Assembly: GCF_026314945.1 (NCBI RefSeq)
Contig: NZ_CP111121.1
Span: 1,488,001 to 1,552,000, forward strand
Direction of reading: 5' to 3'
Origin: Chryseobacterium fluminis
GTDB lineage: Bacteria; Bacteroidota; Bacteroidia; Flavobacteriales; Weeksellaceae
Length of the DNA: 64,000 bases
Below are positions 477-22,990 of this stretch, one piece after another. The translations under genes were made by a program, and so were the position numbers. The first letter of the stretch is position 1; each line of letters starts with the position of its first letter. The notes beneath the pieces were generated by a model that saw only the letters and a program-made list of their open reading frames with translations, made no database searches and was not told the DNA's origin.

Positions 477-2702
477 TCAACGGGATAATGCCATGAGGAT
501 CTTATCCGGCGTGATCGGTAAATCTCTCATCCGGACACCAATCGCATTATAGATGGCATTAGCTATTGCCGGTGCCGTCCCGATGATTCCTACCTCTCCC
601 AGACCTTTTGCCCCGGAAGGATTGATATGAGGATCAGGTTTGTTAATAAAATCTACTTCTATAATAGGTGCATCAGCATTGACTGCAAAGTGGTATCCTG
701 CCAGATCATTACCGATTAATGTCCCTAATCTGGAATCAATCTGGTTTTCCTCCATCAGTGCCATTCCGATACCTCCCACTGCTGCTCCGGACATCTGGTT
801 CGCCGCTGCCTGACTGTTGATGATTTTCCCGCCGTCTGCCATGACAGCAAGCTTTTCCACTTTTACTTTTCCGGTACGCTTATTCACCCGCACCTTACAA
901 AAATGTGCCGAGGATGAGCAGAAAGCAAATTTTTCCCGTTCGCTTCCAGGCTTTGAAGTAACTTCAAGACGTATTTCATCCAGATGATTCTTTTCAAACA
1001 GATCTGCAAAAGAGACGGTAGCATCAGAATTATTTTTTAAGCTGATGCCTGTATCGGTGAGAAGGATATTTTCGGAAACAGCACCTTTGAAACTTTCACT
1101 AAGTGATGCTGCATATTCTGCTACCTTTTGCTTAAGTTGAGTACTCGCCTCGTATACCGCCCCGCTCACAGATGATAAACCTGTACTCCCTCCCTGACTT
1201 GGTGCCGGAGGAAGGGTGGAATTTCCCAGTTCAATATGGATTTTATTTTTTGGTATTCCTGTAATTTCGTGGGCTATATTCTGCATTCCTGTTCCCGTAC
1301 CGGTCCCGATATCCGTCATCGCAGTCTGTACCATCACACTGCCGTCTTTATGCAGTACAATGGCTGCCTGCGATTCCCTTCTCCCGGCATTCCACATGCC
1401 GACAGCCATTCCGTATCCGATATACCAGTCTCCATCGGTAACGCTTGCAGGAACTGCTTTTCTGGCGTTCCATCCTATCATTTCGGCCCCTCTTTTCAAT
1501 CCTTCGTCGAGAAAGTGGGTAGACCATGGCAGGTTCGAGTCCGGGTGTTTTTCCAGGGAAATATTTTTCAGTCTCAGCTCTACAGGATCCATTTTCAGCC
1601 GATAAGACAATTCATCTATGGCAGATTCCAGAGCGAATACTCCGGTACAGTCCCCCGGACCGCGCATCCAGGTTGGGGTGCTTAAATTTAGGGGAACAGT
1701 GGCTGCTTCAGTTTTTAAGTTGGGAAATTTGTAAATCAGTCTGGTAACCCGGGTAATGCCGTCGTTAAAGTTTTCATAGACTGAAGTTTCATTCTTGGCC
1801 TGATGCAGAATTCCTAAAAGATTTCCTGACTGATCCGACCCCAATTTAATTCTCTGCCATGAAGCAGGCCTGTATCCGGTCGCAACGAACATCTGGGAAC
1901 GGGTGAGCATTAATTTTACGGGACGGTTTACCTGTTTTGCAGCCATAACGGAAGCCAGGACGTGAGGCCAGACCCTAAGTCCGGAACCGAAGCCGCCGCC
2001 TACGAATTCACTGAATACCTCAACATTTTTTTCAGGAAGCCCGAATAATTTCGCAAATGTTTTCTGAACATTGTTTACTCCCTGGTTTTTATCATACAGC
2101 CGTAAAGTATCATGTCCTGTCCAATGGGCAATGGTAGCATGCATTTCCATAGGATTGTGCACATCTGCCCTGATGTTGTATTGCTGATCGATAATCAGTG
2201 GCAGGCTCTGCCAGGTATTAAAACCTCCCCTTTCCTTTCCTTCGGCTTTCAAAGGAACTGATTCTCTGGCAGCATTAAAATCAACAGCAAAATCATCTTT
2301 CTGATATTCTGCTTCTACCAACGAGGCTGCAAAAGTAGCATCCTCTAAGGTTTCGGCAATCACCATAGCAATAGGCTGGCCCTTAAAAAAGATTTTATCC
2401 GTATGAAAAACAGGCAGCCCGAACTTGGCTTCCTTAATTTTGTCTTCCGTCGCCATACCCGGCACTGCAGGTTTGTGAAGGTGGGTAATAATATCAAGAA
2501 CGCCTTCGACCTGTTTGGCTTTATCTACTGTAATGGATTGTATTCTGCCGGAAGGAACTGTGCTGTTGACCAATACAGCATAACAGATATTTTTCACCTC
2601 ATATTCAGCCGCATACTTCCCCTTTCCGGTCACTTTTTCTACTCCTTCAACACGACCTTCCGGTCTTTTGGATTTAATTTTCAGTAATTCCAGTAATCCC
2701 AT
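477..2702 (-). CDS. Molybdopterin-binding large subunit, xanthine dehydrogenase/PaoC family
   Basis: A 741-residue molybdenum subunit, close to the length of E. coli PaoC. The N-terminal aldehyde oxidase/xanthine dehydrogenase a/b hammerhead region (about residues 15-130) is followed by the molybdopterin-binding part with GGGFGSG near residue 235. Near the C-terminus, KGLGEVGIIG (about residue 700) holds the Glu that acts as general base in this family. The enzyme would hydroxylate an aldehyde or N-heterocycle. It is last in a three-gene operon with FAD and [2Fe-2S] subunits. There is no signal peptide here, as in PaoC, which is exported with its Tat-tagged partner. The substrate cannot be read from sequence. 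Confidence 0.9.
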   Translation of the reverse strand: MGLLELLKIKSKRPEGRVEGVEKVTGKGKYAAEYEVKNICYAVLVNSTVPSGRIQSITVDKAKQVEGVLDIITHLHKPAVPGMATEDKIKEAKFGLPVFHTDKIFFKGQPIAMVIAETLEDATFAASLVEAEYQKDDFAVDFNAARESVPLKAEGKERGGFNTWQSLPLIIDQQYNIRADVHNPMEMHATIAHWTGHDTLRLYDKNQGVNNVQKTFAKLFGLPEKNVEVFSEFVGGGFGSGLRVWPHVLASVMAAKQVNRPVKLMLTRSQMFVATGYRPASWQRIKLGSDQSGNLLGILHQAKNETSVYENFNDGITRVTRLIYKFPNLKTEAATVPLNLSTPTWMRGPGDCTGVFALESAIDELSYRLKMDPVELRLKNISLEKHPDSNLPWSTHFLDEGLKRGAEMIGWNARKAVPASVTDGDWYIGYGMAVGMWNAGRRESQAAIVLHKDGSVMVQTAMTDIGTGTGTGMQNIAHEITGIPKNKIHIELGNSTLPPAPSQGGSTGLSSVSGAVYEASTQLKQKVAEYAASLSESFKGAVSENILLTDTGISLKNNSDATVSFADLFEKNHLDEIRLEVTSKPGSEREKFAFCSSSAHFCKVRVNKRTGKVKVEKLAVMADGGKIINSQAAANQMSGAAVGGIGMALMEENQIDSRLGTLIGNDLAGYHFAVNADAPIIEVDFINKPDPHINPSGAKGLGEVGIIGTAPAIANAIYNAIGVRMRDLPITPDKILMALSR

Positions 2703-2728
2703 AATTTTACTTTTTAATATATACCCAA

Positions 2729-3706
2729 TTATTGATTCATACTATTTTTTAATGCTGTTATCATAGCTCCCTGAAGCATGGGTATTTTATATCCGTTTTC
2801 AGACAGTGGTTTGAGATCTTTGACCGCTAATCTTGCCGCCTCCTCAAAGGCCTCTTCTGTCGCCCGTTTTCCCTGCAGAAATTTTTCAGCCTCAAACCAG
2901 CGCCAAGGTTTATGGGCTACGCCTCCTGATGCCAAACGGGCATCTTTTATTCTTTTCCCGTCCAGATTTAATGCTGCTGCAACGGATACTAAAGCAAAGG
3001 CATAGGAGGTACGGTCTCTTAACTTAACATAAGCGGAATGTCTGCTGAATGCATTAGCCGGAATCTCAATATGTGTAATGATAGCGTCCTGCGGTAGATT
3101 ATTATCAAGCCATGGGGTATTTTCAGGCAACTTATGAAAATCCGTAAACGGAATTTTAATTTCCTTATGATCTTTTGTCTGCGCAGTTACCGTTGCGTCC
3201 AGAGCAGCCAAAGCGATACAGAAATCTGAAGGGTGAACGGCAACACACTGCTCATTATACCCTGCCACGGCACTCATCCGGTTGGCTCCTCCGATGGCGC
3301 TGCATCCGCTGTTAGGCTTCCTCTTGTTACAGGGAGTGGTAATATCATAAAAATAAGGACATCTGGTCCGCTGCAGTAAATTTCCTGCTGTGCTTGCCAT
3401 ATTCCTGATCTGAGGGGAGGCTCCCGCAAGAATGGCTTTGGAAATAAGCGGAAATTTCTCAATCACCGCTTTGTCATCCGCCACCTTACGGTTGCTTGCC
3501 ATTGCCCCGATCTTCAGACCGGTATTCTGATCTTCAATAGTGTCAGAAAGTGCCGTGGTTATATCAATCAGTTTCTCTGGCTGAGCAATATTTTTTTTCA
3601 TCAGGTCCACCAGATTGGTTCCTCCTGCGATATACTGACTGACAGCTGATTTCATGGCAGAAGCTTCAGCAGCAGATTTTACTTTTTCAAAATTAAATGG
3701 TCTCAT
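2729..3706 (-). CDS. FAD-binding subunit, PaoB-like with extra Fe-S cysteines
   Basis: A 325-residue medium subunit of a molybdenum hydroxylase. The N-terminal FAD-binding part shows YIAGGTNLVDLMK (about residues 26-38). The middle carries RCPYFYDITTPCNKRK followed by SGC, matching the insertion that ligates an additional [4Fe-4S] cluster in E. coli PaoB and is absent from ordinary xanthine dehydrogenase FAD subunits. That is the main reason to call this complex PaoABC-like. Its start overlaps the stop of the [2Fe-2S] gene by 4 bp (ATGA), indicating translational coupling; the molybdenum subunit begins 26 bp downstream. Electron flow would be Mo to [2Fe-2S] to FAD; the final acceptor is unknown. 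Confidence 0.88.
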   Translation of the reverse strand: MRPFNFEKVKSAAEASAMKSAVSQYIAGGTNLVDLMKKNIAQPEKLIDITTALSDTIEDQNTGLKIGAMASNRKVADDKAVIEKFPLISKAILAGASPQIRNMASTAGNLLQRTRCPYFYDITTPCNKRKPNSGCSAIGGANRMSAVAGYNEQCVAVHPSDFCIALAALDATVTAQTKDHKEIKIPFTDFHKLPENTPWLDNNLPQDAIITHIEIPANAFSRHSAYVKLRDRTSYAFALVSVAAALNLDGKRIKDARLASGGVAHKPWRWFEAEKFLQGKRATEEAFEEAARLAVKDLKPLSENGYKIPMLQGAMITALKNSMNQ

Positions 3707-4296
3707 TGTGCTGCAACTTTTTGGATAGACTGAACAATACCGTTATACGCTCCGCAACGGCAGAGATTACCGCTCATAAATTCTTTAATTTCTTCCACAG
3801 AACCCGTATGACCTTCATTCACACAGGCAACGGCAGACATGATCTGGCCCGGCGTACAGTATCCGCACTGAAAGCCGTCGCATTCCACGAATGCTTTCTG
3901 CATCGGATGAAGGTCATCACCGTTAGCAAGTCCTTCAATGGTTGTAATTTCTTTTCCCTGCGCCATTGCTGCCAGGGTAAGACAACTCAATGCCCGCTCC
4001 CCGTTAATGTGTATTGTACAGGCTCCGCACTGTCCGTGGTCACAGCCTTTTTTTGAACCTGTGAGGTTCAGCTGTTCTCTGAAGAGGTCCAGTAAGGTAG
4101 TACGGGTATCTGCATACAGCGTGTGCGTCTTTTTATTGACAGAAAGCGTAAGCCTCGATACATTTTTCTTTGGAACGAGGTATTGCTTTACATCCTGATA
4201 GAATGCCTTTACTGAAGAGGGAACAGCCATAAAACCTGCCAGCAGTCCCGAAACTTTGAGGAAGTTTCTCCTACTGTATTGTCCTTTTAATTCCAT
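3703..4296 (-). CDS. [2Fe-2S] subunit with twin-arginine leader, PaoA-like
   Basis: A 197-residue small subunit. Residues 8-22 read SRRNFLKVSGLLAGF, a twin-arginine export motif, so the assembled complex is probably periplasmic as for E. coli PaoABC. The ferredoxin domain shows GCDHGQCGACT and a later SCL; the helical [2Fe-2S] domain shows CGYCTPG and GNLCRCGAY. All eight expected cysteines are present. It is the first gene of the operon and faces the cofactor operon at 4541 across a 244-bp divergent intergenic region, an arrangement that suggests joint regulation. No clear minus-strand -7 box was seen. Confidence 0.92.
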   Translation of the reverse strand: MELKGQYSRRNFLKVSGLLAGFMAVPSSVKAFYQDVKQYLVPKKNVSRLTLSVNKKTHTLYADTRTTLLDLFREQLNLTGSKKGCDHGQCGACTIHINGERALSCLTLAAMAQGKEITTIEGLANGDDLHPMQKAFVECDGFQCGYCTPGQIMSAVACVNEGHTGSVEEIKEFMSGNLCRCGAYNGIVQSIQKVAAQ

Positions 4297-4444
4297 ATAT
4301 TATTTTTATTAGTATAATGATATGCAAATATGATTTTTAACAAATATCACCAAATAAAATTAAAAAACTGCAATATATATTACCGTTTTACATACCAATA
4401 TTACGGTTTTTAAATAAAGTAATATATAAACGTTATTATTTGTG

Positions 4445-4452
4445 TAAATTTG
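4445..4452 (+). promoter_or_regulatory. Candidate -7 box (TAAATTTG) for the molybdenum cofactor operon
   Basis: Exact match to the Bacteroidota -7 consensus TAnnTTTG, about 90 bp upstream of the xdhC-like start. No convincing TTG -33 element is at the right distance, so confidence is limited. Confidence 0.4.
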
Positions 4453-4540
4453 AATATAGAGAAACTTTTTTAATGGTTTTATTTCAAGAAAATCATACCT
4501 CCCGTTAAAAATAATTACCAATTCATAAAATTATCTGCTG

Positions 4541-5659
4541 ATGAAAGAGATTAATGACATTGTAAAAGCTTATAAAAAAGCACAGATTGATGGATTAAAA
4601 ACAGCGCTGGCTACTGTAGTAAAGGTAGAGGGATCCTCTTACAGGCAGGCCGGCGCAAGAATGCTGGTAACAGAAGACGGATATCTTACCGGTGCCATCA
4701 GTGGAGGCTGTCTGGAAGGAGATGCCTTAAGGAAAGCAGTCCTTGCTATTCATCAGAAAAATAACAAACTTGTCACGTATGACACCAGCAATCCGGATGA
4801 TGTGGAATTTGGGGTACAGCTGGGCTGCAATGGGATTGTTCATATATTATTTGAATACATCAATGAAAATACTTCTCACAACCCTATTGGTCTTCTGGAA
4901 AAAACAACTGACGGAAGAGATGAATCGGTCATCGCCACCGTGTTTTCACTGGAAAACAGAAATAAGCAGACCGGAACTGTGGGACTGGTGAAAAATCAAA
5001 ACATTACGATATCAGATTCAGGCCATCTTTCTGAAAGTGAACTGAAAAGTTTTTCATCACAGGTGCTGGAGAAAAAACAAAATATGCTGACCGGTTTTTC
5101 ATCTAGTGAAATTTTGCTGCAGTATATTCCTCCGCAGACGACATTGGTGGTTGCCGGCGCGGGAAATGATGCGAAACCCTTGGTAGATACTGCCTCAATT
5201 TTAGGCTGGAAAACGGTGATCGCAGATGGCAGGGCCACCCATGCTCTGAAAAAAAGATTTCCTCTTGCCGATGAAGTTTTGCTTGGAAAGCCTGAAGAAA
5301 TCATTAATATGACAGCCATGGATGAAAACACTGTTTTTGTCCTGATGACGCATAATTACAATTATGATCTTGCTCTTTTAAAGCTTATCATTCACCAGCC
5401 GGTACGCTATATAGGGCTGCTGGGACCGAAAAAAAGACTTAACAGAATGCTGGATGATCTTAAAAATTCGGGAATTCTTTTAGGGGAAAAAGAATTAAAT
5501 AAACTTTTCGGTCCTGTTGGAATAGATATTGGTGCTGAGACTTCGGAAGAGATTGCCATCTCCATAGTTGCAGAGATCAAAGCGGTCTTAAGCGGAAAAA
5601 ACGGTTTATCCTTACGGGATAAACAAGAAAAAATACATACTGATATTCTCAGTATATAA
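4541..5659 (+). CDS. XdhC/CoxI family molybdenum cofactor maturation protein
   Basis: A 372-residue protein with the two XdhC-family domains. The N-terminal CoxI part contains GSSYRQAGARMLV and GAISGGCLEGD; the C-terminal Rossmann-like part contains TTLVVAGAGNDAK and GPVGIDIGAETSEEIAISI. XdhC proteins bind the cofactor, help add its terminal sulfido ligand and insert it into the apo-enzyme; PaoD plays this role for PaoABC. Position next to the Pao-like operon and at the head of the cofactor operon fits a dedicated chaperone. The next gene begins 7 bp after its stop. Confidence 0.88.
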   Translation: MKEINDIVKAYKKAQIDGLKTALATVVKVEGSSYRQAGARMLVTEDGYLTGAISGGCLEGDALRKAVLAIHQKNNKLVTYDTSNPDDVEFGVQLGCNGIVHILFEYINENTSHNPIGLLEKTTDGRDESVIATVFSLENRNKQTGTVGLVKNQNITISDSGHLSESELKSFSSQVLEKKQNMLTGFSSSEILLQYIPPQTTLVVAGAGNDAKPLVDTASILGWKTVIADGRATHALKKRFPLADEVLLGKPEEIINMTAMDENTVFVLMTHNYNYDLALLKLIIHQPVRYIGLLGPKKRLNRMLDDLKNSGILLGEKELNKLFGPVGIDIGAETSEEIAISIVAEIKAVLSGKNGLSLRDKQEKIHTDILSI

Positions 5660-5666
5660 ATAGATT

Positions 5667-6647
5667 ATGCTAACAGACCAATTCGGAAGAACCCATACCT
5701 ACCTTAGGATATCTTTAACGGATAACTGTAACCTGCGCTGTTTTTACTGTATGCCGGAAGAAAATTACGATTTTACTCCGCATTCAAAACTGATGCAGGC
5801 GGATGAAATTGATACTTTAGCCAGGCTTTTTGTTCATAAGGGGGTAGACAAAATCCGGCTGACCGGTGGCGAACCTTTTGTACGAAAAGATGCTTCCATG
5901 ATCATCCGCAACTTAGGAAAACTGCCCGTACAGCTGACCTGCACTACGAATGGTATCCGTATTGACGATATGATTTCCGGAATTGTCGAGGCGAATTTCC
6001 ACAGCATTAATATAAGCCTAGATACCTTGCAGAAAGAGAAATTTCTGAAGATTACCCGCCGTGACTATTTTGACCGGGTGGTCCGAAATATTGATCTTTT
6101 GCTGAAGCATGGTATAAAGACCAAAATTAATGTGGTGGCGATGAAAGGCGTTAATGATGATGAAATACCGGAATTCATAGCTTTTACAAAAAGCCATCCT
6201 GTCGAAGTAAGGTTTATAGAGTTTATGCCTTTCAGCGGGAATAAATGGAGCAGCAACCAGGTAATGACCCAAAAAGATATTCTGGATATTATCGGAGAAA
6301 AATACGATTTTTTTCCTCTGCCCGTCGGATTTCATGATACCGCGAAAGGCTATAAGATCAATGGTCACCAAGGAAGTTTTTCCATTATCAGTACCATGAG
6401 TGAACCTTTCTGCAGCGGGTGCAACAGGATCAGGCTTACGGCAGACGGAAAACTGAAAAACTGCCTTTTCTCGAAGTATGAAACCGATCTTTTAACACCG
6501 TTGCGCAAAGGTGAGGATATTGTACCGGTCATAGAGTCTGCGATCTTTTCGAAAGCAAAAATACAGGGTGGCCAGCTGGACCGGCAATTTGAAAAAATCA
6601 ATGCGTCGATCATTGAGAACAGAAGTATGATTAATATTGGCGGATAA
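5667..6647 (+). CDS. moaA: GTP 3',8-cyclase MoaA
   Basis: Radical SAM enzyme for the first step of molybdopterin synthesis, converting GTP to 3',8-cyclo-GTP. The 326 residues match the family length. The SAM cluster motif CNLRCFYC is at residues 21-28; the C-terminal GTP-binding cluster motif is CSGCNRIRLTADGKLKNC. The protein ends in Gly-Gly, the conserved MoaA tail needed for activity. Its stop overlaps the next start by one base (TAATG). Confidence 0.96.
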   Translation: MLTDQFGRTHTYLRISLTDNCNLRCFYCMPEENYDFTPHSKLMQADEIDTLARLFVHKGVDKIRLTGGEPFVRKDASMIIRNLGKLPVQLTCTTNGIRIDDMISGIVEANFHSINISLDTLQKEKFLKITRRDYFDRVVRNIDLLLKHGIKTKINVVAMKGVNDDEIPEFIAFTKSHPVEVRFIEFMPFSGNKWSSNQVMTQKDILDIIGEKYDFFPLPVGFHDTAKGYKINGHQGSFSIISTMSEPFCSGCNRIRLTADGKLKNCLFSKYETDLLTPLRKGEDIVPVIESAIFSKAKIQGGQLDRQFEKINASIIENRSMINIGG

Positions 6648-7243
6648 TGAAAAATACTGGAATTATATTACTGGCAGCAGGAAATTCTACAAGAATGGGA
6701 TCTGCAAAACAGCTTTTATTGTATCAGAATAAAACACTTCTCGAAAGAACCATAGATACCGCACTGGAAGTATTTGATACAAACCAGATCATTCTTGTGC
6801 TGGGTGCACATCATGATGACATCGCTTTTTCGATAAGAAATAAAGATATACCCACTATCGTAAATAAAGAATGGGATTCCGGAATGGCTTCATCCATTAC
6901 ATCGGGATTAATAACCTTATCTGCCCGTTATCCTGAAATGGAAAAGTGTTTTATTTCCGTTTGTGATCAGCCTTATCTTACCAGTCAGGTATTTTTGGAG
7001 ATGTTTCAGCTATACAAAACTTCCGGCAGAGGGATCGTCACCGCTAAATATGCAGATACCCTGGGCGTTCCGGCTCTGTTTTCGAAAAACTATTTTGAAG
7101 AACTCATGACTATCACAGGTGAACAGGGGGCAAAAAAGATCATTCAACAGCATCGGGAAGACGCAGAAACTTTCGGGTTTGAGGACGGAGCGATTGATAT
7201 CGACACGCCCTCAGATTATGATAATTTAAAAAATAAAAAATGA
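6647..7243 (+). CDS. MocA-like molybdopterin nucleotidyltransferase
   Basis: A 198-residue nucleotidyltransferase of the MobA/MocA superfamily. The N-terminal signature LLAAGNSTRMGSAKQLL binds the nucleotide triphosphate. Later CDQPYLT and GVPALFSK are typical of MocA, the CTP:molybdopterin cytidylyltransferase. MocA supplies the MCD cofactor used by PaoABC-type enzymes, so the neighbourhood supports MocA over the GTP-specific MobA. It overlaps moeA by 4 bp. Nucleotide specificity is inferred. Confidence 0.82.
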   Translation: MKNTGIILLAAGNSTRMGSAKQLLLYQNKTLLERTIDTALEVFDTNQIILVLGAHHDDIAFSIRNKDIPTIVNKEWDSGMASSITSGLITLSARYPEMEKCFISVCDQPYLTSQVFLEMFQLYKTSGRGIVTAKYADTLGVPALFSKNYFEELMTITGEQGAKKIIQQHREDAETFGFEDGAIDIDTPSDYDNLKNKK

Positions 7244-8418
7244 TCAGTGTACAGGAAGCACAGGAAATAATCAATCAGAATATTCCGGAAAGAAAACAGC
7301 AGATTCTGCCGTTAAAAAAAGCATTTGGATATACAACTGCTGAGGATATCTATTCCAGATACGATATTCCGAATTTTTCGCAGTCTTCAATGGACGGTTA
7401 TGCGATCCGTTTTGAAGATAAAAATTTAAAATTAAAAATCGCGGGCGAAATGCCGGCTGGCTCTACAGAATATTTCACACTTGAAAACGGCACCGCCTGC
7501 AGGATCTTTACGGGAGCACCGCTTCCTGATGGTGCAGATACGGTCGTTATGCAGGAAAAAGTGTCGGTTGAAGATCATGAATACCTGATCATCGAAGATC
7601 CCGATCTTGAAAAAGGCATGCATGTAAGAGATGCCGGAAGTGATGCCCAAGAAGGCAGCATTGCCATCAGTTCCGGAAATTATCTTTCTGCGGCGGCTAT
7701 AGGATATCTGGCAGGAATAGGATGCACTGAAGTAAAGGTTTATGCCGCACCTTCCGTATCCTTGATTTTAACGGGTAACGAACTGGTAAAACCGGGAGAA
7801 AATCTGGATTTCGGGCAGGTCTTCGAATCCAATTCCTACCAGCTGGAAAGTGTTCTGAAACAATGCGGAATAGAGACGATTGAAAGTGTTTTGGTAAAAG
7901 ATGACCTTTCAGAAGTATCAAAGGCCCTTCATTCGGCCATTTTAAAAACAGATATAGTGATCCTGGTCGGCGGCGTGAGTGTCGGTGATTATGATTACGT
8001 GATTGATGCCACCCGAAAATGTGGTGTTAAACAACGATTTCATAAAATCAGGCAAAAACCCGGAAAACCTTTCTTTTTCGGAACTAAAGAGGAGAAACTC
8101 GTTTTCGGACTGCCTGGAAATCCGTCTTCCGCACTTACCTGCTTTTATGTATACATTGCTCCTTTACTTTCAAAAATCATGATGCGTCCGGACATTACCG
8201 CAAAGACCAGCGCCCTAACAACATCTGCCTACCAGAAGAAAAGCGGCCTCATGCATTTCCTTAAAGCAACCCATCTCGACGGGCAGGTAACGCCACTTCA
8301 TGCACAGGAATCTTACCGTCTGCAGTCTTTTGCGGAAGCCAACTGTCTTATGATTCTTAAAGAAAATTCAGAAGGATGCGGGAAAGATGAGGCCGTGGAA
8401 GTCATCATATTAAAATAG
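7240..8418 (+). CDS. moeA: Molybdopterin molybdenumtransferase MoeA
   Basis: A 392-residue protein of normal MoeA length; it inserts molybdate into adenylylated molybdopterin. Visible motifs are QSSMDGYAIR near residue 47, LTGNELVKPG near 180, GGVSVGDYDYV in the MoCF-binding domain, and GLPGNPSSALTCFYVY. The start overlaps the mocA-like stop by 4 bp; 10 bp separate it from the next gene. Confidence 0.95.
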   Translation: MISVQEAQEIINQNIPERKQQILPLKKAFGYTTAEDIYSRYDIPNFSQSSMDGYAIRFEDKNLKLKIAGEMPAGSTEYFTLENGTACRIFTGAPLPDGADTVVMQEKVSVEDHEYLIIEDPDLEKGMHVRDAGSDAQEGSIAISSGNYLSAAAIGYLAGIGCTEVKVYAAPSVSLILTGNELVKPGENLDFGQVFESNSYQLESVLKQCGIETIESVLVKDDLSEVSKALHSAILKTDIVILVGGVSVGDYDYVIDATRKCGVKQRFHKIRQKPGKPFFFGTKEEKLVFGLPGNPSSALTCFYVYIAPLLSKIMMRPDITAKTSALTTSAYQKKSGLMHFLKATHLDGQVTPLHAQESYRLQSFAEANCLMILKENSEGCGKDEAVEVIILK

Positions 8419-8428
8419 AAACTTAAAA

Positions 8429-9163
8429 ATGAATGTAGAATTCTTTTACCTTATATTATTTGTAATTGCCGCTCTGTATGCAGCAGTAGGACACGGAGGC
8501 GCAAGCGGATATTTAGCGCTGATGGCTTTATATGGGGTGGCTCCGAAAGAAATGAAACCTACCGCACTTGTTCTTAATCTTTTTGTGTCCATGACGGCCT
8601 TTATACAGTATTACAGAGGTGGACATTTCAGGCTCCGGATTTTTATTCCTATAGCGCTGGCCTCTATTCCCCTGGCTTTCGTTGGCGGAATGATTCATAT
8701 TGAAGATACCTTATATAAGCGTATTCTGGGCATCTTACTGCTCTTCCCGGTCATCCGTTTTTTCTTCTTCAAGAGTCCGGATGACAGCGAGCTGAAGGAT
8801 CCTCAAATTTATCTATCCCTGATCTTCGGGGGCGTTATCGGCTTATTATCAGGAATGATCGGTATCGGCGGAGGGATCTTACTGTCGCCGGTTCTTATTC
8901 TGTTAAAATGGACCAATCAGAAACAGACCGCAGCCATCAGTGCAGCCTTTATTTTCGTTAATTCCGTGGCCGGTTTGGGTGGAATGTTTACCAAGGAGAT
9001 CGCTTTTACCCAAGACATGTGGATGTATATCGTGTGTGCCTTTGCCGGTGGGTTGCTTGGCGCCTATTTAGCTTCAAAAAAGCTTAATCAGAACGGACTG
9101 AAATATGTACTGGCTGTCGTTCTCCTGATGGCTTGCTATAAATTAATCTCAAGCACTATTTAA
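8429..9163 (+). CDS. TauE/SafE family membrane transporter
   Basis: A 244-residue, strongly hydrophobic protein with about eight membrane segments and the internal twofold repeat of TauE/SafE proteins: GHGGASGYLALMALYG near the start and GLLSGMIGIGGGILLSPV in the middle. Members export sulfite, sulfoacetate or related anions, or act in sulfur uptake. Its place inside a cofactor operon, directly before a sulfite-oxidase-like protein, suggests an oxyanion or sulfur compound as substrate, perhaps sulfite or molybdate; this is inference. Confidence 0.82.
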   Translation: MNVEFFYLILFVIAALYAAVGHGGASGYLALMALYGVAPKEMKPTALVLNLFVSMTAFIQYYRGGHFRLRIFIPIALASIPLAFVGGMIHIEDTLYKRILGILLLFPVIRFFFFKSPDDSELKDPQIYLSLIFGGVIGLLSGMIGIGGGILLSPVLILLKWTNQKQTAAISAAFIFVNSVAGLGGMFTKEIAFTQDMWMYIVCAFAGGLLGAYLASKKLNQNGLKYVLAVVLLMACYKLISSTI

Positions 9164-9172
9164 AATCATACC

Positions 9173-9661
9173 ATGAAAAATTTAACGTTATCAGCTGCTT
9201 TTCTGTTTACAACTTTTAGTTTTGCCCAATCGGCAAAAAGCATCGGGATTATTGCTCCTGATCATAGAGAAATAACAGTCACAGCAGCCGATCTGGCAAA
9301 ATATACTAAACACAAGTTAGACAGTGTTCAGATTACCAATCATCTGAAAGAGTACAAATCTACCCTCAAAAACGTGAATGGTGTTTTGCTCAGAGATGTT
9401 CTTTCAAAAATATCTTTTAACGAGAAGTCACCAAAAGTGTTGAGTGAATATTATATCACCTGTATTGCAGAAGATGGGTATAGGGTTGTTTTCTCATGGA
9501 ATGAAATTTTCAATACTTCTGTGGGGGACCATGTACTGATCATTCCGGAAGTTGAAGGCAGACCGAAAGACGGCATCTCCACCTTGTCTCCCACTGATTT
9601 TGCAACCGGAAGAAGATACGTAAAAATGTTGAAAACCATTGTCTTAAAAAAAGCAGACTAA
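9173..9661 (+). CDS. Secreted sulfite oxidase-fold (molybdopterin-binding-like) protein
   Basis: A 162-residue protein with a signal peptide ending near FSFAQ. The mature part resembles the small oxidoreductase-molybdopterin (sulfite oxidase-type) domain proteins common in Bacteroidota: an ITVTAADLAKY strand, GVLLRDVLSKI, EDGYRVVFSWNEIFN and a C-terminal GRRYVKMLKTIVL. The molybdenum-ligating cysteine of true sulfite oxidases is not at an obvious position, so it may bind cofactor without catalysis. It lies 9 bp after the TauE-like gene and overlaps moaD by one base. Confidence 0.65.
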   Translation: MKNLTLSAAFLFTTFSFAQSAKSIGIIAPDHREITVTAADLAKYTKHKLDSVQITNHLKEYKSTLKNVNGVLLRDVLSKISFNEKSPKVLSEYYITCIAEDGYRVVFSWNEIFNTSVGDHVLIIPEVEGRPKDGISTLSPTDFATGRRYVKMLKTIVLKKAD

Positions 9662-17669: not shown

Positions 17670-18344
17670 TTAATTTTTCGTGAATGAATATTCTTTACTG
17701 ACGATGTCTAAAAGCTTTTCTGACTCTATATTTCTAGTGAATATCGGGTAATGAAATTTGTCCAGCTTATTCAGAAGACGGATCAGATGCATCTTTTCGG
17801 AATAACTTAAGTTACCCGATACCACATGAGTGGCTTTTCTGATCTTATGCATCTGATTTTCCAAAGCCAGAAGCCCGGATTCTGTAATATGGATGATTTT
17901 CATTCTCCTGTCGGTATCGGAATCTGCCTGTGCAATCCACCCTTGTCTGATCAATCTGTTGATGATAAGCATCCCGGCAGGTTTTTCATGTACATTCTTT
18001 CTGATGAGATCTATTTTGGTCATTGCGCCGAAAGACTTCAGCGTAATCAGATAAATAAAGTCTTCCTGAGTTGTAAAATCCGATCCTGAAATCGCCGATT
18101 TTGAATAGGTTTTTGCATACCTGCTGAGATGAACCAAAAAAGTACTTATTACACTTTCTGGACTTCTGCCCTCTTCCTTTCCCTCCCAGTACGGTTCGTC
18201 CACTTCATTTCTTAATCTGTAGGATTCTTTGGCACACACCCATGCCTTAAAACCAGCAAGGTCTGAACTGTAAGAATTTCCCGTATTTTCATTATCAAAG
18301 TCTTCGAGTAATGTGATGACTTCTTTCATCATAGTGTAATCCAT
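17670..18344 (-). CDS. MarR-family regulator of the carotenoid operon
   Basis: A winged-helix regulator of about 224 residues. The DNA-binding core includes GAMTKIDLIRKN, a recognition-helix region around RLIRQGWIAQ and the wing DTDRRMKIIHITESG, as in MarR proteins. A C-terminal extension (last ~45 residues) is longer than usual. I place the start at the ATG at 18344 (or the ATG pair at 18329-18332); a TTG at 18374 would lie inside the promoter palindrome and upstream of the predicted transcript start. As first gene of the crt operon it probably represses its own operon through the palindrome at 18351-18378. Confidence 0.82.
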   Translation of the reverse strand: MDYTMMKEVITLLEDFDNENTGNSYSSDLAGFKAWVCAKESYRLRNEVDEPYWEGKEEGRSPESVISTFLVHLSRYAKTYSKSAISGSDFTTQEDFIYLITLKSFGAMTKIDLIRKNVHEKPAGMLIINRLIRQGWIAQADSDTDRRMKIIHITESGLLALENQMHKIRKATHVVSGNLSYSEKMHLIRLLNKLDKFHYPIFTRNIESEKLLDIVSKEYSFTKN

Positions 18345-18350
18345 GTGATT

Positions 18351-18378
18351 TAATTTGGTATACAAATATACCAAATTA
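18351..18378 (-). promoter_or_regulatory. crt operon promoter inside a perfect palindrome (candidate MarR operator)
   Basis: A perfect 12-bp inverted repeat (18351-18362 and 18367-18378) with a 4-base spacer. The minus strand of 18363-18370 reads TATATTTG, an exact Bacteroidota -7 box, so the promoter core lies across the dyad. The start codon follows at 18344. A protein bound here would block RNA polymerase, which fits autorepression by the MarR gene. No clear -33 TTG was found. Confidence 0.75.
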
Positions 18379-18629
18379 ATTAAATATAATATATTAATAT
18401 ACTAAAATTATTTATATAAAAATAAATACGGTACAGTCGGAGAAGATAACGCAATAACAGGACCACAAATGTGTAAGGGTTGATATTTGATCCATCGTGG
18501 AGGATTGCTGGTCTGATTTATATAGCGATCTGATTTATTTACCTCTGGATAAGCCGTAAAAGGCGTACACCACAATAGTATAATGGTATGTTTGATTGTA
18601 CTAATTGTTAAGCAATATTTTCACTGCTA

Positions 18630-18774
18630 CCGCACAAATCTTTCATGTAGTTGTCTGTACCACCCCTCAAATATTTTTAAAAAAAACAACAATATTTTAT
18701 TTTTTTTCAGAATCTATTATTGAGGTTGCAAAAGTGATTGAATAAAAACTACACCACACGATAGAATCGTGCGG
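18630..18774. repeat. BIME-like unit: degenerate inverted REP, linker and direct REP
   Basis: A degenerate inverted copy (18630-18650, CCGCACAAAT..CATGTAG) faces an intact copy (18754-18774), which has 9-base arms ACACGAT/ATCGTGC with flanking CC/GG, an AGA loop and a trailing TAGC. The ~100-bp linker contains the TTCAGAATCTATT and GGTTGCAAAAG segments shared with the array at 20218-20757. The rest of the 18379-18784 intergenic region shows no gene. Confidence 0.75.
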
Positions 18775-18784
18775 TAGCAGGTAT

Positions 18785-19327
18785 TTATTTTTGTAAAGAA
18801 TATTCTCTCTTTCTGCTTCTTTCCAGAACCAGATAGGCAGCATCCAGCATTTTCATCAGATGGATGTACGGGTTGATGATATTTTTTTCGGGTATGTGAT
18901 CCGAGGTGCCCATCGACAAATAAAACATCCCGGACATAAAGTAGTCGAACTCCTTGATGGTGTATTCCTTATAGGCCTGACTGAATACCAATAGCGGATC
19001 CAGGTATTCCTGCTCCGAAAGCAAGCCAAACACCACAGGAACGGAGTTCTCCGGCAGTCTGCTGAAACGATGTTTCTTTTTCTTCAGCATCAGAAGATAC
19101 CCTGCCCGCACAAACGAGCGCATCGACTGGTGAAACTGAAAGAGCACCGACGGATCTTCCGCAATGAAACCATCCTTTTTTATGGCGTAGCGAATGATGT
19201 CGTTTAGCCTTTTTTTAGTGGTTACCAGATCATTGAACTGGAAGAAGTTCTCCAACAGCTGTAACCCAGCACGTTTCTTAGGGCCTGTCCAAAAGAGGGT
19301 TTCTGGATCTGCTGTATTTTTTTTCAT
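18785..19327 (-). CDS. Hypothetical protein
   Basis: A 180-residue soluble, basic, helix-rich protein I do not recognise. It has no signal peptide or membrane segment. It contains the run KKKKHRF in the middle and several aromatic residues in the C-terminal half (KEFDYFMSGMFYL). It stands alone between a REP pair and an intergenic region rich in hairpins, with its stop 10 bp from the intact REP copy at 18754-18774. The start ATG at 19327 follows AT-rich DNA and nothing suggests another start. Coding is credible from length and composition; function unknown. Confidence 0.6.
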   Translation of the reverse strand: MKKNTADPETLFWTGPKKRAGLQLLENFFQFNDLVTTKKRLNDIIRYAIKKDGFIAEDPSVLFQFHQSMRSFVRAGYLLMLKKKKHRFSRLPENSVPVVFGLLSEQEYLDPLLVFSQAYKEYTIKEFDYFMSGMFYLSMGTSDHIPEKNIINPYIHLMKMLDAAYLVLERSRKREYSLQK

Positions 19328-19429
19328 AAAGTTTTTGCATTTTTTTTGAATAATGTAAAAGAGCTGTCATTGATATCCTCTTCCATTACTGCATGGAATT
19401 CGTTTGATTTCACTTGCCTGGTAAAAACA

Positions 19430-19453
19430 TCCGGCGTACACCGGTACGCCGGA
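19430..19453. repeat. GC-rich perfect hairpin
   Basis: Perfect 9-bp inverted repeat (19430-19438 with 19445-19453, core CCGGCGTA) around a 6-base loop, conspicuously GC-rich in an AT-rich intergenic region (19328-19892). No T-run follows on either strand, so it does not look like a terminator. Confidence 0.6.
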
Positions 19454-19664
19454 GTTCCACACTTAACAGATTAAAATAATAAATAACATTTGTGTCCCGT
19501 GAAAGCCCTGAAGCCGCAATGGATTGTACACTCCACTGTATCGTATCATGATATTTGTATGTTGTGAAGCGGCTTAGAAAAGATGATTGTAGAAAGACAG
19601 AACAGCATGAAATAAAACGGCATGGGACTCTACATTATCAGTAATAGGGGTACTGGTATACCTT

Positions 19665-19724
19665 ACACACAAATAAGAGAGCCCACGCCTAGGTCGTGAG
19701 CTTCTTGCCTATTGTCTTGTGTGT
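19665..19724. repeat. 60-bp two-tier inverted repeat
   Basis: An outer 8-bp stem (19665-19672 ACACACAA with 19717-19724 TTGTGTGT) encloses an inner 8-bp stem AGCCCACG/CGTGAGCT with one mismatch, centred on CCTAGG. The two tiers are separated by unpaired segments of 7 and 14 bases. It could be a structured RNA or a hairpin element; it is unrelated in sequence to the REP copies nearby. Confidence 0.55.
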
Positions 19725-19843
19725 TTAAAAATTACCAGTTTTCTATTACAAGATTCTAAGCAATAGCTTCTTTTATTTTTTGAAGTATCGCAAAGCTACT
19801 TTATTGTAGCTTATTTTACAAATGTAATACTTTTTTTGAAACT

Positions 19844-19883
19844 GTGACATATTTGTCAATGAAAGTTTTGACAAATATGTCAC
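19844..19883 (+). promoter_or_regulatory. Nested double operator upstream of the XRE gene
   Basis: A perfect 16-bp inverted repeat (19844-19859 and 19868-19883) with an 8-base spacer. Each arm is itself a dyad, TGACA-N4-TGTCA, at 19845-19858 and 19869-19882, centres 24 bp apart. The second site ends 10 bp before the ATG at 19893. This is what two dimer sites for the following XRE protein would look like. Confidence 0.7.
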
Positions 19884-19892
19884 TTTTATTTA

Positions 19893-20186
19893 ATGGAATA
19901 CATTCAAGATAAATATTTTATTGCAATAGCTGATTATGTGAAAGAATTTATTAATGAAAAAGGAATTGATGTTTCAGATTTGGCAGCAGCAGCTAATGTT
20001 GACAGAAAACAAATCTACAGGTTATTAAATAAGGAAAATATACCTAAATTATCTACGCTGGTAAGAATATTATTAGCAGCTGGACTAGAACCTTCAAAAC
20101 TTTTCTCAATCAAATTTGATTTTGAAACATATATGGTTGATAATAATATTTTAAAAGCTGTTCCTAAAAAGAAGAAAACCAGTTAA
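19893..20186 (+). CDS. XRE-family helix-turn-helix regulator
   Basis: A 97-residue protein with a Cro/CI-type helix-turn-helix in residues ~22-70: VSDLAAAANVDRKQIYRLLN followed by IPKLSTLVRILLAAGLEPSK. The N-terminal helix and the short basic tail PKKKKTS flank the domain. It is monocistronic; the next element downstream is the REP array. Two TGACA-N4-TGTCA dyads immediately upstream suggest autorepression. No toxin-like partner gene is present on either side, so a toxin-antitoxin role is not supported. Confidence 0.82.
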   Translation: MEYIQDKYFIAIADYVKEFINEKGIDVSDLAAAANVDRKQIYRLLNKENIPKLSTLVRILLAAGLEPSKLFSIKFDFETYMVDNNILKAVPKKKKTS

Positions 20187-20217
20187 CTGATAATAGGTAA
20201 GTATATATACCCCGCTA

Positions 20218-20757
20218 CCGCACGAATCCTTTCGTGTGGTTGTTTATAATACACAGTAAATATTCAGTAACAACATTATTTTAAAACTTTTTTCAGAATC
20301 TATTGTCTAGTTTGCAAAAGCTATTGTATAAAAGTACTACACCACACGATAGAATCGTGCGGCAGCGGTTGTCTGTACCACACCGCAAATATTTCAAAAA
20401 AACAGCATTATTTTTTAAAGCTTTTTCAGAATCTACTATTTAGGTTGCAAAAGTGATTGAATAAATACACTACACCACACGATAGAATCGTGCGGCAGCG
20501 GTTGTCTGTACCACACCGCAAATATTTCAAAAAAACAGCATTATTTTTTAAAGCTTTTTCAGAATCTACTATTTAGGTTGCAAAAGTGATTGAATAAATA
20601 CACTGCACCACACGATAGAATCGTGCGGCAGCGGTTGTCTGTACCACACCGCAAACAATCTAAAACAACAATATTTTTAATTTTTTTCCAGAATCTATTG
20701 TCTAGGTTGCAAAAGCTATTGTATAAAAGTATTACACCACACGATAGAATCGTGCGG
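20218..20757. repeat. REP/BIME array: one inverted and four direct REP hairpins
   Basis: Inverted REP at 20218-20239; direct REPs of identical 21-nt sequence at 20342-20362, 20475-20495, 20608-20628 and 20737-20757. Spacings are 133, 133 and 129 bp. The 133-bp units 20363-20495 and 20496-20628 differ by about one base, showing recent tandem duplication. On the minus strand the stem pairs with a G-U wobble where the plus strand has an A-C mismatch. GTAG or GCAG follows each stem. The linkers share TTCAGAATCTA and TTGCAAAAG. The array ends 18 bp from the RAYT stop codon. Confidence 0.88.
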
Positions 20758-20775
20758 TAGCGGTAGTTATTAGCA

Positions 20776-21342
20776 TTAGACATTAAAGATTCTAAAAACA
20801 ACAATATCATCCAAGAGCCCTTTTTCATCACAATAATCTTTTGCACTACTGTATTTATATTCTTCTGCGCGCGAAACCAAGCCTGCCTTTACCGGATTTT
20901 GATGGATGTAATTAATCTTCTGGTTAATCACTTTGTTGCTCCATAACTCAATAGGTTTATTATCATGTCTCCAAAACTGATATTGGGCAACATTTGAATT
21001 TTTTGAACCCTCTGTAAGGAAGAAATTTAATAAAAATTCTTTTCTGCTTTCTGTCGGATTCTCTCTAATTGCTGCAACGAGCGCTTTGCTGGTAAATCTT
21101 TTAAAATCACCCAGCAGAAATTCCGGTTTTTGCCCATTTATACTTCTGAAAACCAGATGCACATGATTTGACATGATACACCAGGCATGTATTTCCATTC
21201 CTTTACTCTTTTGGCAAAAACTTAAACTTTTCAGAAGTATTTCTTTATATTCATCTTTAATAAAGACATCCAGCCAGCCCACGACAGCAAAACTTACGAA
21301 GTATAGCCCATTAGGATTATGGAATTTGTAATTTCGACTCAT
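20776..21342 (-). CDS. REP-associated tyrosine transposase (RAYT, Y1_Tnp family)
   Basis: A 188-residue IS200-like single-strand transposase domesticated for REP elements. The HUH motif is in CIMSNHVHLVF (about residues 56-66) and the catalytic-tyrosine region in NYIHQNPVKAGLVSRAEEYKYSSA near the C-terminus, both typical of TnpA_REP proteins. The N-terminal YFVSFAVVGWLDVF strand is also characteristic. The gene lies between the REP array (18 bp after its stop) and a further REP hairpin (21396-21416) upstream of its start, so it is the likely agent that spread these repeats. RAYTs are normally single-copy and not self-mobile like IS200. Confidence 0.9.
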   Translation of the reverse strand: MSRNYKFHNPNGLYFVSFAVVGWLDVFIKDEYKEILLKSLSFCQKSKGMEIHAWCIMSNHVHLVFRSINGQKPEFLLGDFKRFTSKALVAAIRENPTESRKEFLLNFFLTEGSKNSNVAQYQFWRHDNKPIELWSNKVINQKINYIHQNPVKAGLVSRAEEYKYSSAKDYCDEKGLLDDIVVFRIFNV

Positions 21343-21395
21343 CAGATATGTTTTTTATAAAGATAAAAATTTTGTGAGAAATGGATAAATAAAAA

Positions 21396-21416
21396 CCACA
21401 CGATAGAATCGTGCGG
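21396..21416 (+). repeat. REP hairpin upstream of the RAYT gene
   Basis: The same 21-nt hairpin as in the array, followed by TAGC, 53 bp before the RAYT start. Together with 20737-20757 it brackets the transposase gene. Confidence 0.85.
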
Positions 21417-21448
21417 TAGCGGGTGTATTAAAGTTCTATAATTACCAC

Positions 21449-21496
21449 ATTAAACTATTAAACTATTAAACTATTAAACTATCAAACTATTAAACT
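21449..21496. repeat. Tandem repeat of ATTAAACT (six copies)
   Basis: Six consecutive 8-bp units, the fifth with one T-to-C change, followed by a degenerate seventh. The repeat lies in the 21343-21742 intergenic region between the RAYT REP and the terminator at 21685. No reading frame crosses it. Confidence 0.85.
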
Positions 21497-21684
21497 ATTT
21501 AATAACAAGCAATTGTAATAAAATCCATCCTGCCCGGTAATAACTCCACATTTTGATTAATTCAATTTTTCGGCTTTTTTTCACGAAAGTTCCTTGATAC
21601 GGTTTTTCTGTTTTTTTACATCATTACTTTATTTACATTTAGCTCCGCCTAGTAAAAGACTTCGAAAAATATGTTTTAAATAAA

Positions 21685-21713
21685 ATAAGCATCGTTATAA
21701 CAATGATGCTTAT
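21685..21713 (-). terminator. Terminator after the 415-residue secreted protein
   Basis: A 9-bp stem (21685-21693 with 21705-21713) followed on the minus strand by TTTTATTT, 30 bp after the stop codon at 21743. Confidence 0.7.
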
Positions 21714-21742
21714 ATTTATCAATTCTTATCCTCTATTCCTGC

Positions 21743-22990
21743 CTACTCATACTTCGAAAAATCTACCGCAAAGATACAGCGGTTGACCTGGCTGCCATTC
21801 TGTGCTCCGGCGTTGGGTTCGTATTCTGTGAGGCTCCACAGATAGCCGTATTGGGATTCATAGTACAGAGATTCTGCACCATAAGGCCATCGGTAGCGTA
21901 CGGTATCATCGGCTCCGTCGGTATACCGGGCCAGTCTGGCATTGGAACCGTAAGAGTTACTGGGTGATCCCGTGCACGAAAGCCAGGTCCTGTTTCCTTT
22001 TCTGAATACGCCCTGGATACCGTGGGCATGGTTATCGGCAAAAAGGCTGTTTTTGGGAGCTACGGAAACAATTCCCGTGTTCTGAAGCATTCCGCCGGCA
22101 TCCACAGGAAAACCAAAGACCTGAGGAACAATGGAAGCATCGGCACTGCCTGCATAGTATTGGCCAGTCCATAGCTGCGTTCCTTCATTATTGACCTGCA
22201 CGGTCGAGAAAGGACTGGCGTTATTGATTTTTTGATATCCTGTCTGAGGCAATATATAGCGGTAATTAAAAGCAAATAAATTACCATTGGCATCTTTACC
22301 GCACTTTTCATTAGTAGTGTCTCCTGTACTGACTTCAATTATTTTATCCAGATCGAATATCCGCACCCCCAGATTTGTGCTGCTGAGATAAATTTTCCCT
22401 TTAAAATAGGCGATACCTCCGGCATGGACATTCAGCGGCGCGTAAGAACCATATTGGGTATACGTGGCAGTCGTAACAGGAATATCGGGCTGCACCAGCA
22501 AAATATGCCGATAGGTTAGATAAGTGGGCGAACTTGGGCTGATGTCCATCAGTGTAATGCGGGAGCCTTTATATTCGGCGGCATCCTTTGCGTACCAGCT
22601 GATCAGGAGGTAACGGACGCCATCTTTTGAGAATCCGGCAATGCCCTGCGGCCGCCAGATAGAGGTGGTTTCATCGTCAGTATTCCAGCGGATTCCCCGT
22701 ACGCGGTTTTCCTCAGGGATATTGAATCCGTACACCTCGGTGTAAGAATTTCCGCCAATGGCCTGCCGGTTTTTATTAATTTCAGAAGGATTTAAAAAGC
22801 TAAAGCCTGAGCTGATATATTGGCTCGTGTCTACAAAAGGATTCACACTCACTTCTGCAGCTGCTTTGTCTGTACTGAGTTTTGACGAAAGTTCTTCTTC
22901 TGCCGTTACTGAAGTCATTCCGTTATTTTGGCATCCGATGCCCGTGATGGCAAGCAGAAGCATCCATCCAAGAATTGGTTTTTGAATCAT
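21743..22990 (-). CDS. Secreted or lipid-anchored hypothetical protein
   Basis: A 415-residue protein with a hydrophobic N-terminal signal ending ITGIGC, so it may be a lipoprotein although the residue at -3 is not canonical. The mature part is rich in beta-strand, Gly, Tyr and Trp, with segments such as PQGIAGFSKDGVRYLLISWY, HAGGIAYFKGKIYLSSTNLGV and HAHGIQGVFRKGNRTWLSCTG that read like blades of a beta-propeller. No catalytic motif is recognised. It is transcribed alone: a terminator follows, and the upstream 364 bp before it hold only the terminator of the next operon. Function unknown. Confidence 0.65.
   Translation of the reverse strand: MIQKPILGWMLLLAITGIGCQNNGMTSVTAEEELSSKLSTDKAAAEVSVNPFVDTSQYISSGFSFLNPSEINKNRQAIGGNSYTEVYGFNIPEENRVRGIRWNTDDETTSIWRPQGIAGFSKDGVRYLLISWYAKDAAEYKGSRITLMDISPSSPTYLTYRHILLVQPDIPVTTATYTQYGSYAPLNVHAGGIAYFKGKIYLSSTNLGVRIFDLDKIIEVSTGDTTNEKCGKDANGNLFAFNYRYILPQTGYQKINNASPFSTVQVNNEGTQLWTGQYYAGSADASIVPQVFGFPVDAGGMLQNTGIVSVAPKNSLFADNHAHGIQGVFRKGNRTWLSCTGSPSNSYGSNARLARYTDGADDTVRYRWPYGAESLYYESQYGYLWSLTEYEPNAGAQNGSQVNRCIFAVDFSKYE

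Follow-up and report, generated by a model that had tools for sequence, protein, structure and literature searches.

Around the gene of a REP-associated tyrosine transposase (RAYT, or TnpA_REP; REP, repetitive extragenic palindrome) of Chryseobacterium fluminis lies a cluster of short hairpins. It is part of a 64,000-nucleotide stretch of contig NZ_CP111121.1, positions 1,488,001 to 1,552,000, which is here called the window; the features are collected in Table 1. The plus strand carries six exact copies of CCACACGATAGAATCGTGCGG, each starting at the first position of one of the six REPs entered as minus in Table 1, whereas 100 dinucleotide shuffles contained none. They are accompanied by two inverted relatives, one intact with a variant loop (20218-20239) and one decayed. 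An earlier note, made from the sequence alone, had described a REP/BIME-like array (BIME, bacterial interspersed mosaic element) of six intact and two inverted hairpins, a linker of about 100 bp common to the pairs that face each other, and two near-identical 133-bp units; array, coordinates, linker and units were all borne out.

Table 1. Features of the RAYT locus in window coordinates; for REPs, the strand is the better-folding one
Feature	Position	Strand	Remarks
RAYT/TnpA_REP gene	20776..21342	-	188 aa; HUH motif NHVH, residues 59-62; Y motif YIHQNP with Tyr145
Outer left REP	20214..20239	+	4-nt-loop class; tag GCTA, then hairpin
Outer right REP	21396..21420	-	3-nt-loop class; upstream side of RAYT; outward tag
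REP, multiplied copy 1 of four	20342..20366	-	3-nt-loop class
REP, multiplied copy 2 of four	20475..20499	-
REP, multiplied copy 3 of four	20608..20632	-
REP, multiplied copy 4 of four	20737..20761	-	tag side towards RAYT stop codon
Linker of RAYT-adjacent pair	20240..20341
Linker+REP unit, 133 bp	20368..20500
Linker+REP unit, 133 bp	20501..20633		near-identical to 20368..20500
REP, right half of separate REPIN-like pair (18624-18778)	18754..18778	-	tag side towards stop of open reading frame (ORF) 18785-19327
Decayed inverted REP, left half of the same pair	18624..18651	+
Linker of separate pair	18652..18753
Places of the ~180-aa ORF	window 18785-19327; G000:C2:1392630-1393652; L013 3104-3676; L014 583-1119

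Comparison with relatives identifies the two outer REPs as the canonical partners of the RAYT gene, and four linker+REP units lie between the outer left REP and the gene. The outer left REP is located 27 bp past the stop of a helix-turn-helix (HTH) gene, and three tag sides in the window are close past stop codons (HTH gene, ORF 18785-19327, and RAYT). A repeated unit made of two inverted REPs and the linker between them, as in REPINs and BIMEs, was seen both in the window and in relatives, for example at locus L105. When the linker was compared with its own genome, with 40 of the 68 candidates scored, five matches with E < 1e-10 were obtained, all at this locus, and the other 17 reached only E values of 0.04-0.9. 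None of the linker matches fell in the RAYT region, so that an origin of the linker from a decayed RAYT gene was rejected. A search of positions 18300-22000 against Rfam returned no family near its gathering score. A short tandem repeat with a period of 8 bp (21449-21504) lies directly outside the outer right REP.

Hairpin, tag, and transposase

The RAYT protein scores 93.3 bits with the NCBIfam profile NF047646 (REP-associated tyrosine transposase, REP_Tyr_transpos; cut-off 80), but 22 bits with the IS200-type profile NF033573, far below the cut-off of 55. The first of these scores, together with the HUH and Y motifs, bears out the identity that the earlier note had assigned to the gene. In 20 aligned proteins, Tyr145 and the first His of the HUH motif are invariant, and the second His is replaced in one protein. 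Three of the four motifs of subclass 2.6 (NH[LIV]H, WQ, YIH[QN]NP, and an SS tail) fit, with WR in place of WQ. In a weak alignment with Escherichia coli TnpA_REP, the GTAG-reading residues W94, E100, and R104 are opposite A119, R125, and W134; Q95 and H101 are conserved. The predicted structure, a low-confidence model with a mean pLDDT of 62, appears to resemble IS200-type and REP transposases (4er8, TMq 0.53; ISDra2, E 7e-5).

This RAYT subfamily is represented by one copy in the C. fluminis genome, which has four further RAYT-like genes, one of them weak. None of the surroundings examined of these four genes contained the present hairpin; the nearest paralogue, 42% identical, has a different hairpin of its own. 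Likewise, a RAYT subfamily with 53-57% identity has other hairpins alongside.

The two strands of the hairpin differ in their folding as DNA. The strand beginning with GCTACCGCACGA reached -7.7 kcal/mol with the 3-nt loop and -8.2 kcal/mol with the 4-nt loop, in comparison to -4.9 and -5.7 kcal/mol for the strand considered in the earlier note, because an A-C mismatch turns into a G.T wobble. One oligonucleotide pair of a second REP family showed a like asymmetry (-8.7 vs -6.8). We therefore prefer to write the tag as 5'-GCTR, placed at the 5' foot of the hairpin on a strand that would also be the one used by RAYT. The canonical REP tag 5' GT[AG]G is not present at the hairpin foot, where the better-folding strand has 5'-GCTR. 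The earlier note had placed GTAG/GCAG on the 3' side of the stem and saw in this a difference from E. coli REPs. This position depends on the strand that is read: on the better-folding strand, the geometry is the same as in E. coli, and it is the tag sequence that differs. The description as a REP/BIME array around a RAYT gene holds with respect to the REP family, the transposase, the inverted pairs with linker, and the dispersal, but not with respect to the tag polarity.

Distribution in the genome, the genus, and the phylum

In the C. fluminis genome (5.07 Mb, two contigs), hairpins were located by pattern search and in extracted stretches. With up to one mismatch, there are 71 distinct places (3-nt loop, 27; 4-nt loop, 44), so that the hairpin is a dispersed REP family, as the reading of the earlier note requires, and not confined to the locus. 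The exact gapped pattern gave 65 hits, in which at least one fully symmetrical site is counted on both strands, and the reversed control gave 0. The two loop classes differ by one swapped base pair (GAT...ATC vs GAA...TTC). In the 35 loci examined, the copies are mainly intergenic, with few overlapping small doubtful ORFs, and many are single copies at unrelated intergenic places. These dispersed extragenic palindromes are a REP family with its RAYT. On the tag side of many full copies, half-REPs (tag plus one arm) occur in tandem with a period of 17-24 bp (L020 1125-1190, L043 1105-1157, L018 1047-1200, and L001), and a similar series is found past the hairpin of the 42% identical RAYT.

Across 148 Chryseobacterium genomes, 71 had a RAYT match (E <= 1e-10); in 21 of them, the subfamily described here is represented by a long copy, which contains a stop in two genomes. 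The gene typically lies between an upstream and a downstream hairpin with outward tags. Hairpin counts, for classes assigned by hand from the match table, averaged 8.4 (median 3) with a long copy (n = 21, C. fluminis with 65 included), 4.4 with RAYT remnants (n = 22), 1.1 with other RAYT subfamilies only (n = 28), and 1.75 (median 0) where no match was present (n = 77). The differences from the last class were significant for long copies (one-sided p = 1e-4) and for remnants (p = 3e-6). A stem variant with CGCG occurs in 8 of the 148 genomes; G008, G128, and G117 have it at the RAYT flanks only, and three genomes with such stems score zero by the hairpin pattern.

An association of hairpin and gene was also seen in the phylum, where at least 440 related loci were found and the best 80 of them (RAYT identity 54-83%) were compared, allowing up to 3 substitutions in the hairpin. 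A hairpin with an outward GCTN tag was present upstream in 60/79 and downstream in 60/77 loci, and on both sides in 53/76, whereas inward-only hairpins numbered 0 upstream and 2 downstream. Neither 800 shuffled flanks nor 70 stretches located 1.2-1.5 kb away in the same loci gave such a bracket. The 60 upstream hairpins have the GCTN tag or close variants, and in 51 of them, the six bases outside the tag include three or more Cs. The misses (19 upstream, 17 downstream) stem in 13 and 13 cases from RAYTs below 63% identity, several of which have other hairpins, beginning with GCTGGCGC or GCTAGCGC. Among 48 distinct hairpins, three measures of covariation lay above all 500 shuffles, namely the score itself, the paired cells, and the cells with a double change; one stem pair alternates between A-T (24/48) and G-C (23/48).

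Position of the copies and possible routes of spread

The tag side of the copies is often directed towards the end of a gene. At 48 REP loci of other genomes, this applied to 64 of the 81 scored copies, and in 29 of these 64 the stop is no more than 40 bp away. The inner side is directed towards a 5' end in 46 of 64; with three RAYT-flanking copies taken out, 60/78 remained. The copies of the C. fluminis genome showed no such bias (19 vs 20). A second REP family behaved like the first, with 19 of 22 (24 copies away from RAYT, 22 of them with a tag-side neighbor).

Many of the sites in other genomes are close to Rhs arrays. An Rhs core motif, home-made and overlooking some cores, was found within 3 kb at 19 of 40 REP sites in 14 of 22 genomes, while the core density (mean of 13.4 cores per genome) predicts about 0.7/40. 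These 40 sites were taken from a partial listing without regard to genes; RAYT flanks and a contig end were excluded, as were many places of the listing, and some of the genomes are those in which the Rhs pattern was first noticed. Random control sites had 0/20 by motif and 1/20 by profile; the latter is locus L172, which overlaps a TIGR03696 match at G024:C1:4602245 that the motif missed, and counting it gives 19/40 vs 1/20 (p = 0.001). Other side sets had the motif in 2/29, 1/30, and 0/12 loci. Eight clusters (L105-L112) were kept apart from the 19/40 and are pooled in an Rhs count of 23/48, as they are in the orientation count of 64/81. In L112, L107, and L108, the region common to neighboring modules begins at the tag edge of a REP. 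With the second REP family, the motif was within 1.5 kb in 7/30 loci, RAYT neighbors included. In C. fluminis, none of 35 REP loci had the motif in stretches of only about 1.1 kb on each side, and copy L017 is about 1.3 kb from a listed Rhs core. Genome G059 has a REP array but no Rhs core, RAYT units were not found beside Rhs (0/23 in the genus within 1.5 kb, 1/80 in the phylum within 2.5 kb), and REP and Rhs counts per genome were barely correlated (rho 0.14, p 0.09). Among the matches listed, no link of RAYT or REP with Rhs arrays was found in the open-access literature. In L105 of genome G083 (2600-9600), near-identical REP pairs of about 110 bp are located between successive different genes, in a genome that has no RAYT match.

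We favor, with a probability of about 0.75, the view that the array is a REPtron belonging to TnpA_REP subclass 2.6 of the Bacteroidota, accompanied by non-autonomous, REPIN-like REP pairs and by single REPs with the same ends. Its core would be a small HUH-Y1 nuclease gene with an outward REP on either side. When the 5'-C(n)GCTR-hairpin strand becomes single-stranded, for example on the lagging-strand template, it would fold into a hairpin of 9 bp that has a G.T wobble close to its foot. RAYT would then bind hairpin and tag, cut at or near the tag by means of Tyr145, and join the ends elsewhere, by which the DNA between two outward tags would move. The hairpin, its covariation and strand asymmetry, the bracket around the gene, the dispersal in C. 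fluminis, and the other hairpins beside more distant RAYTs are observations; we infer binding, cutting, the position of the cut, transposition, and target choice. RAYT probably assisted in making the copies; in C. fluminis the family has reached about 70 of them, and a linker+REP unit has multiplied in tandem beside the gene.

Several observations weigh against this view. An empty site with exact ends was not found in the compared loci. Of 12 loci with the HTH module, 10 were readable past the HTH gene; one (G033) has the RAYT unit, and the nine others differ directly after the stop. At the RAYT site of G070, an apparent RAYT scrap and a decayed REP remain in G141, and the unit is absent from G015 and G046, whose divergence is too great to place an exact junction. 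The repeats of some arrays extend far past the hairpin, as expected from duplication. The covariation rows had been selected by similarity to the stem, and doubly changed pairs (reached by 46 of 500 shuffles) and pair types (95 of 500) were unremarkable. When the two flanking copies are subtracted, the excess of hairpins with a long RAYT becomes borderline (median 1, one-sided p = 0.047), and 33 of the 77 genomes without a RAYT match have at least one hairpin, G083 even 25. The expectation of the earlier note that copy number follows the gene is supported insofar as counts are higher with RAYT or its remnants, but the outcome for the condition that it had named as refuting, equal abundance in relatives without RAYT, is mixed.

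It is unlikely that the hairpins spread chiefly by tandem or segmental duplication and recombination, with RAYT as a passenger or only a historical source. The tandem units of the window, a tandem unit of G085 that takes in the end of the RAYT gene, a 535-bp repeat of G002 that holds a REP, a terminator, and an Rhs leader, and the 25 copies of G083 would all be explained in this way, but neither the many single copies at unrelated places in C. fluminis nor the outward bracket conserved across the phylum would. With an equally low probability, the hairpins are retained because they act as transcription terminators or as RNA hairpins of 3' ends, their position being largely unrelated to mobility. 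The bias towards gene 3' ends in the other genomes agrees with this, as do a T-run right after the hairpin, read from the tag side, in 29/86 copies, and an intrinsic-terminator-like hairpin 9-18 nt further in 13/86 (shuffles 0.2%). However, T-poor copies are at least as strongly biased (25/28) as T-rich ones (35/50), which weakens termination as the full cause of the orientation; the C. fluminis copies are unbiased, and a terminator needs neither a RAYT bracket nor a constant tag.

Somewhat less probable still is that the Chryseobacterium hairpin is an end mark of toxin-immunity modules, which would be gained, lost, or swapped there by RAYT or by recombination between copies. The frequency of Rhs cores near the 40 sites, the constant orientation past ORFs, the module boundaries at tag edges, and the similar behavior of the second REP family speak for this. 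On the other side are the motif-free C. fluminis loci, within their short stretches, the array of G059, the RAYT units away from Rhs, and the weak correlation of counts; moreover, the picture would be similar if the hairpins merely preferred variable 3' ends. A rather doubtful extension is that the RAYT hairpin, lying a few bases past the last gene in a fixed orientation, was adopted as such a mark, with modules added, lost, or swapped by RAYT cutting or hairpin recombination, which would make selfish DNA the source of a single-strand counterpart of integron cassettes. The Rhs-array link suggests that selfish hairpins could shape interbacterial weapons.

Next to the array, about 350 bp of highly conserved non-coding DNA (19481-19829) lie between two divergent genes. 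Among the matches listed, this element is present in many of the 148 Chryseobacterium genomes, twice in several. Ten aligned copies have 77 consensus pairs, 10 of them changed on both sides, with a small covariation term; no Rfam family reached its threshold with the element, which is possibly an undescribed structured RNA. The neighboring ORF of about 180 aa has no Pfam or NCBIfam match and recurs in the genome near REPs (Table 1). Together with the HTH gene (19893-20186), ORF and element seem to form a module with REP caps at both ends.

Comparison with known systems

The proposed REPtron resembles that of E. coli (TnpA_REP, PDB 4er8) in having the RAYT gene among its REPs, inverted pairs, and an imperfect hairpin whose 5' foot carries the tag. 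It differs in its tag, GCTR instead of GTAG, and in its lower copy number of about 70, as E. coli-type REPs usually occur in hundreds of copies per genome. With IS200/IS605 elements, it shares a small HUH-Y1 transposase gene of about 0.7 kb, placed between two hairpins, and a related fold according to the structural model. Unlike in these elements, the hairpins are mutually inverted, the gene is mostly single-copy, and the IS200-type profile stays below its cut-off; several near-identical autonomous copies, as known for IS200/IS605, were not seen, with one subfamily copy in the C. fluminis genome. Integron attC cassettes carry single-strand hairpins past gene modules in fixed orientation and in arrays. 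The REPs past modules may be likened to them by analogy only; the nuclease here belongs to another superfamily.

As far as the available part of the source goes, Pseudomonas REPINs (PMC3116915) likewise consist of two inverted REPs and a linker as the repeated unit, but the linker described here is limited to one locus, and its pairs are putatively mobile. A close counterpart is TnpA_REP subclass 2.6, which, according to the accessible part of PMC6006769, is mostly found in Bacteroidetes, lacks a GT[AG]G tag, and has 'atypical secondary structures' at its flanks. The motifs NH[LIV]H and YIH[QN]NP, the SS tail, the occurrence in Bacteroidota, the hairpins at the flanks with copies elsewhere, and the missing GT[AG]G tag agree with this description, and WR in place of WQ does not; the same part of the text on subclass 2.6 gives neither a tag sequence nor a link to Rhs arrays. 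Most knowledge of REPs comes from gammaproteobacteria, where the tag is GTAG and the hairpin varies from RAYT to RAYT (PMC6006769, accessible part). Tag and constancy set the Bacteroidota form apart from this textbook form: across much of the phylum, a single hairpin, differently tagged, is near-constant beside its nuclease, and therefore tag recognition and coevolution can be tested.

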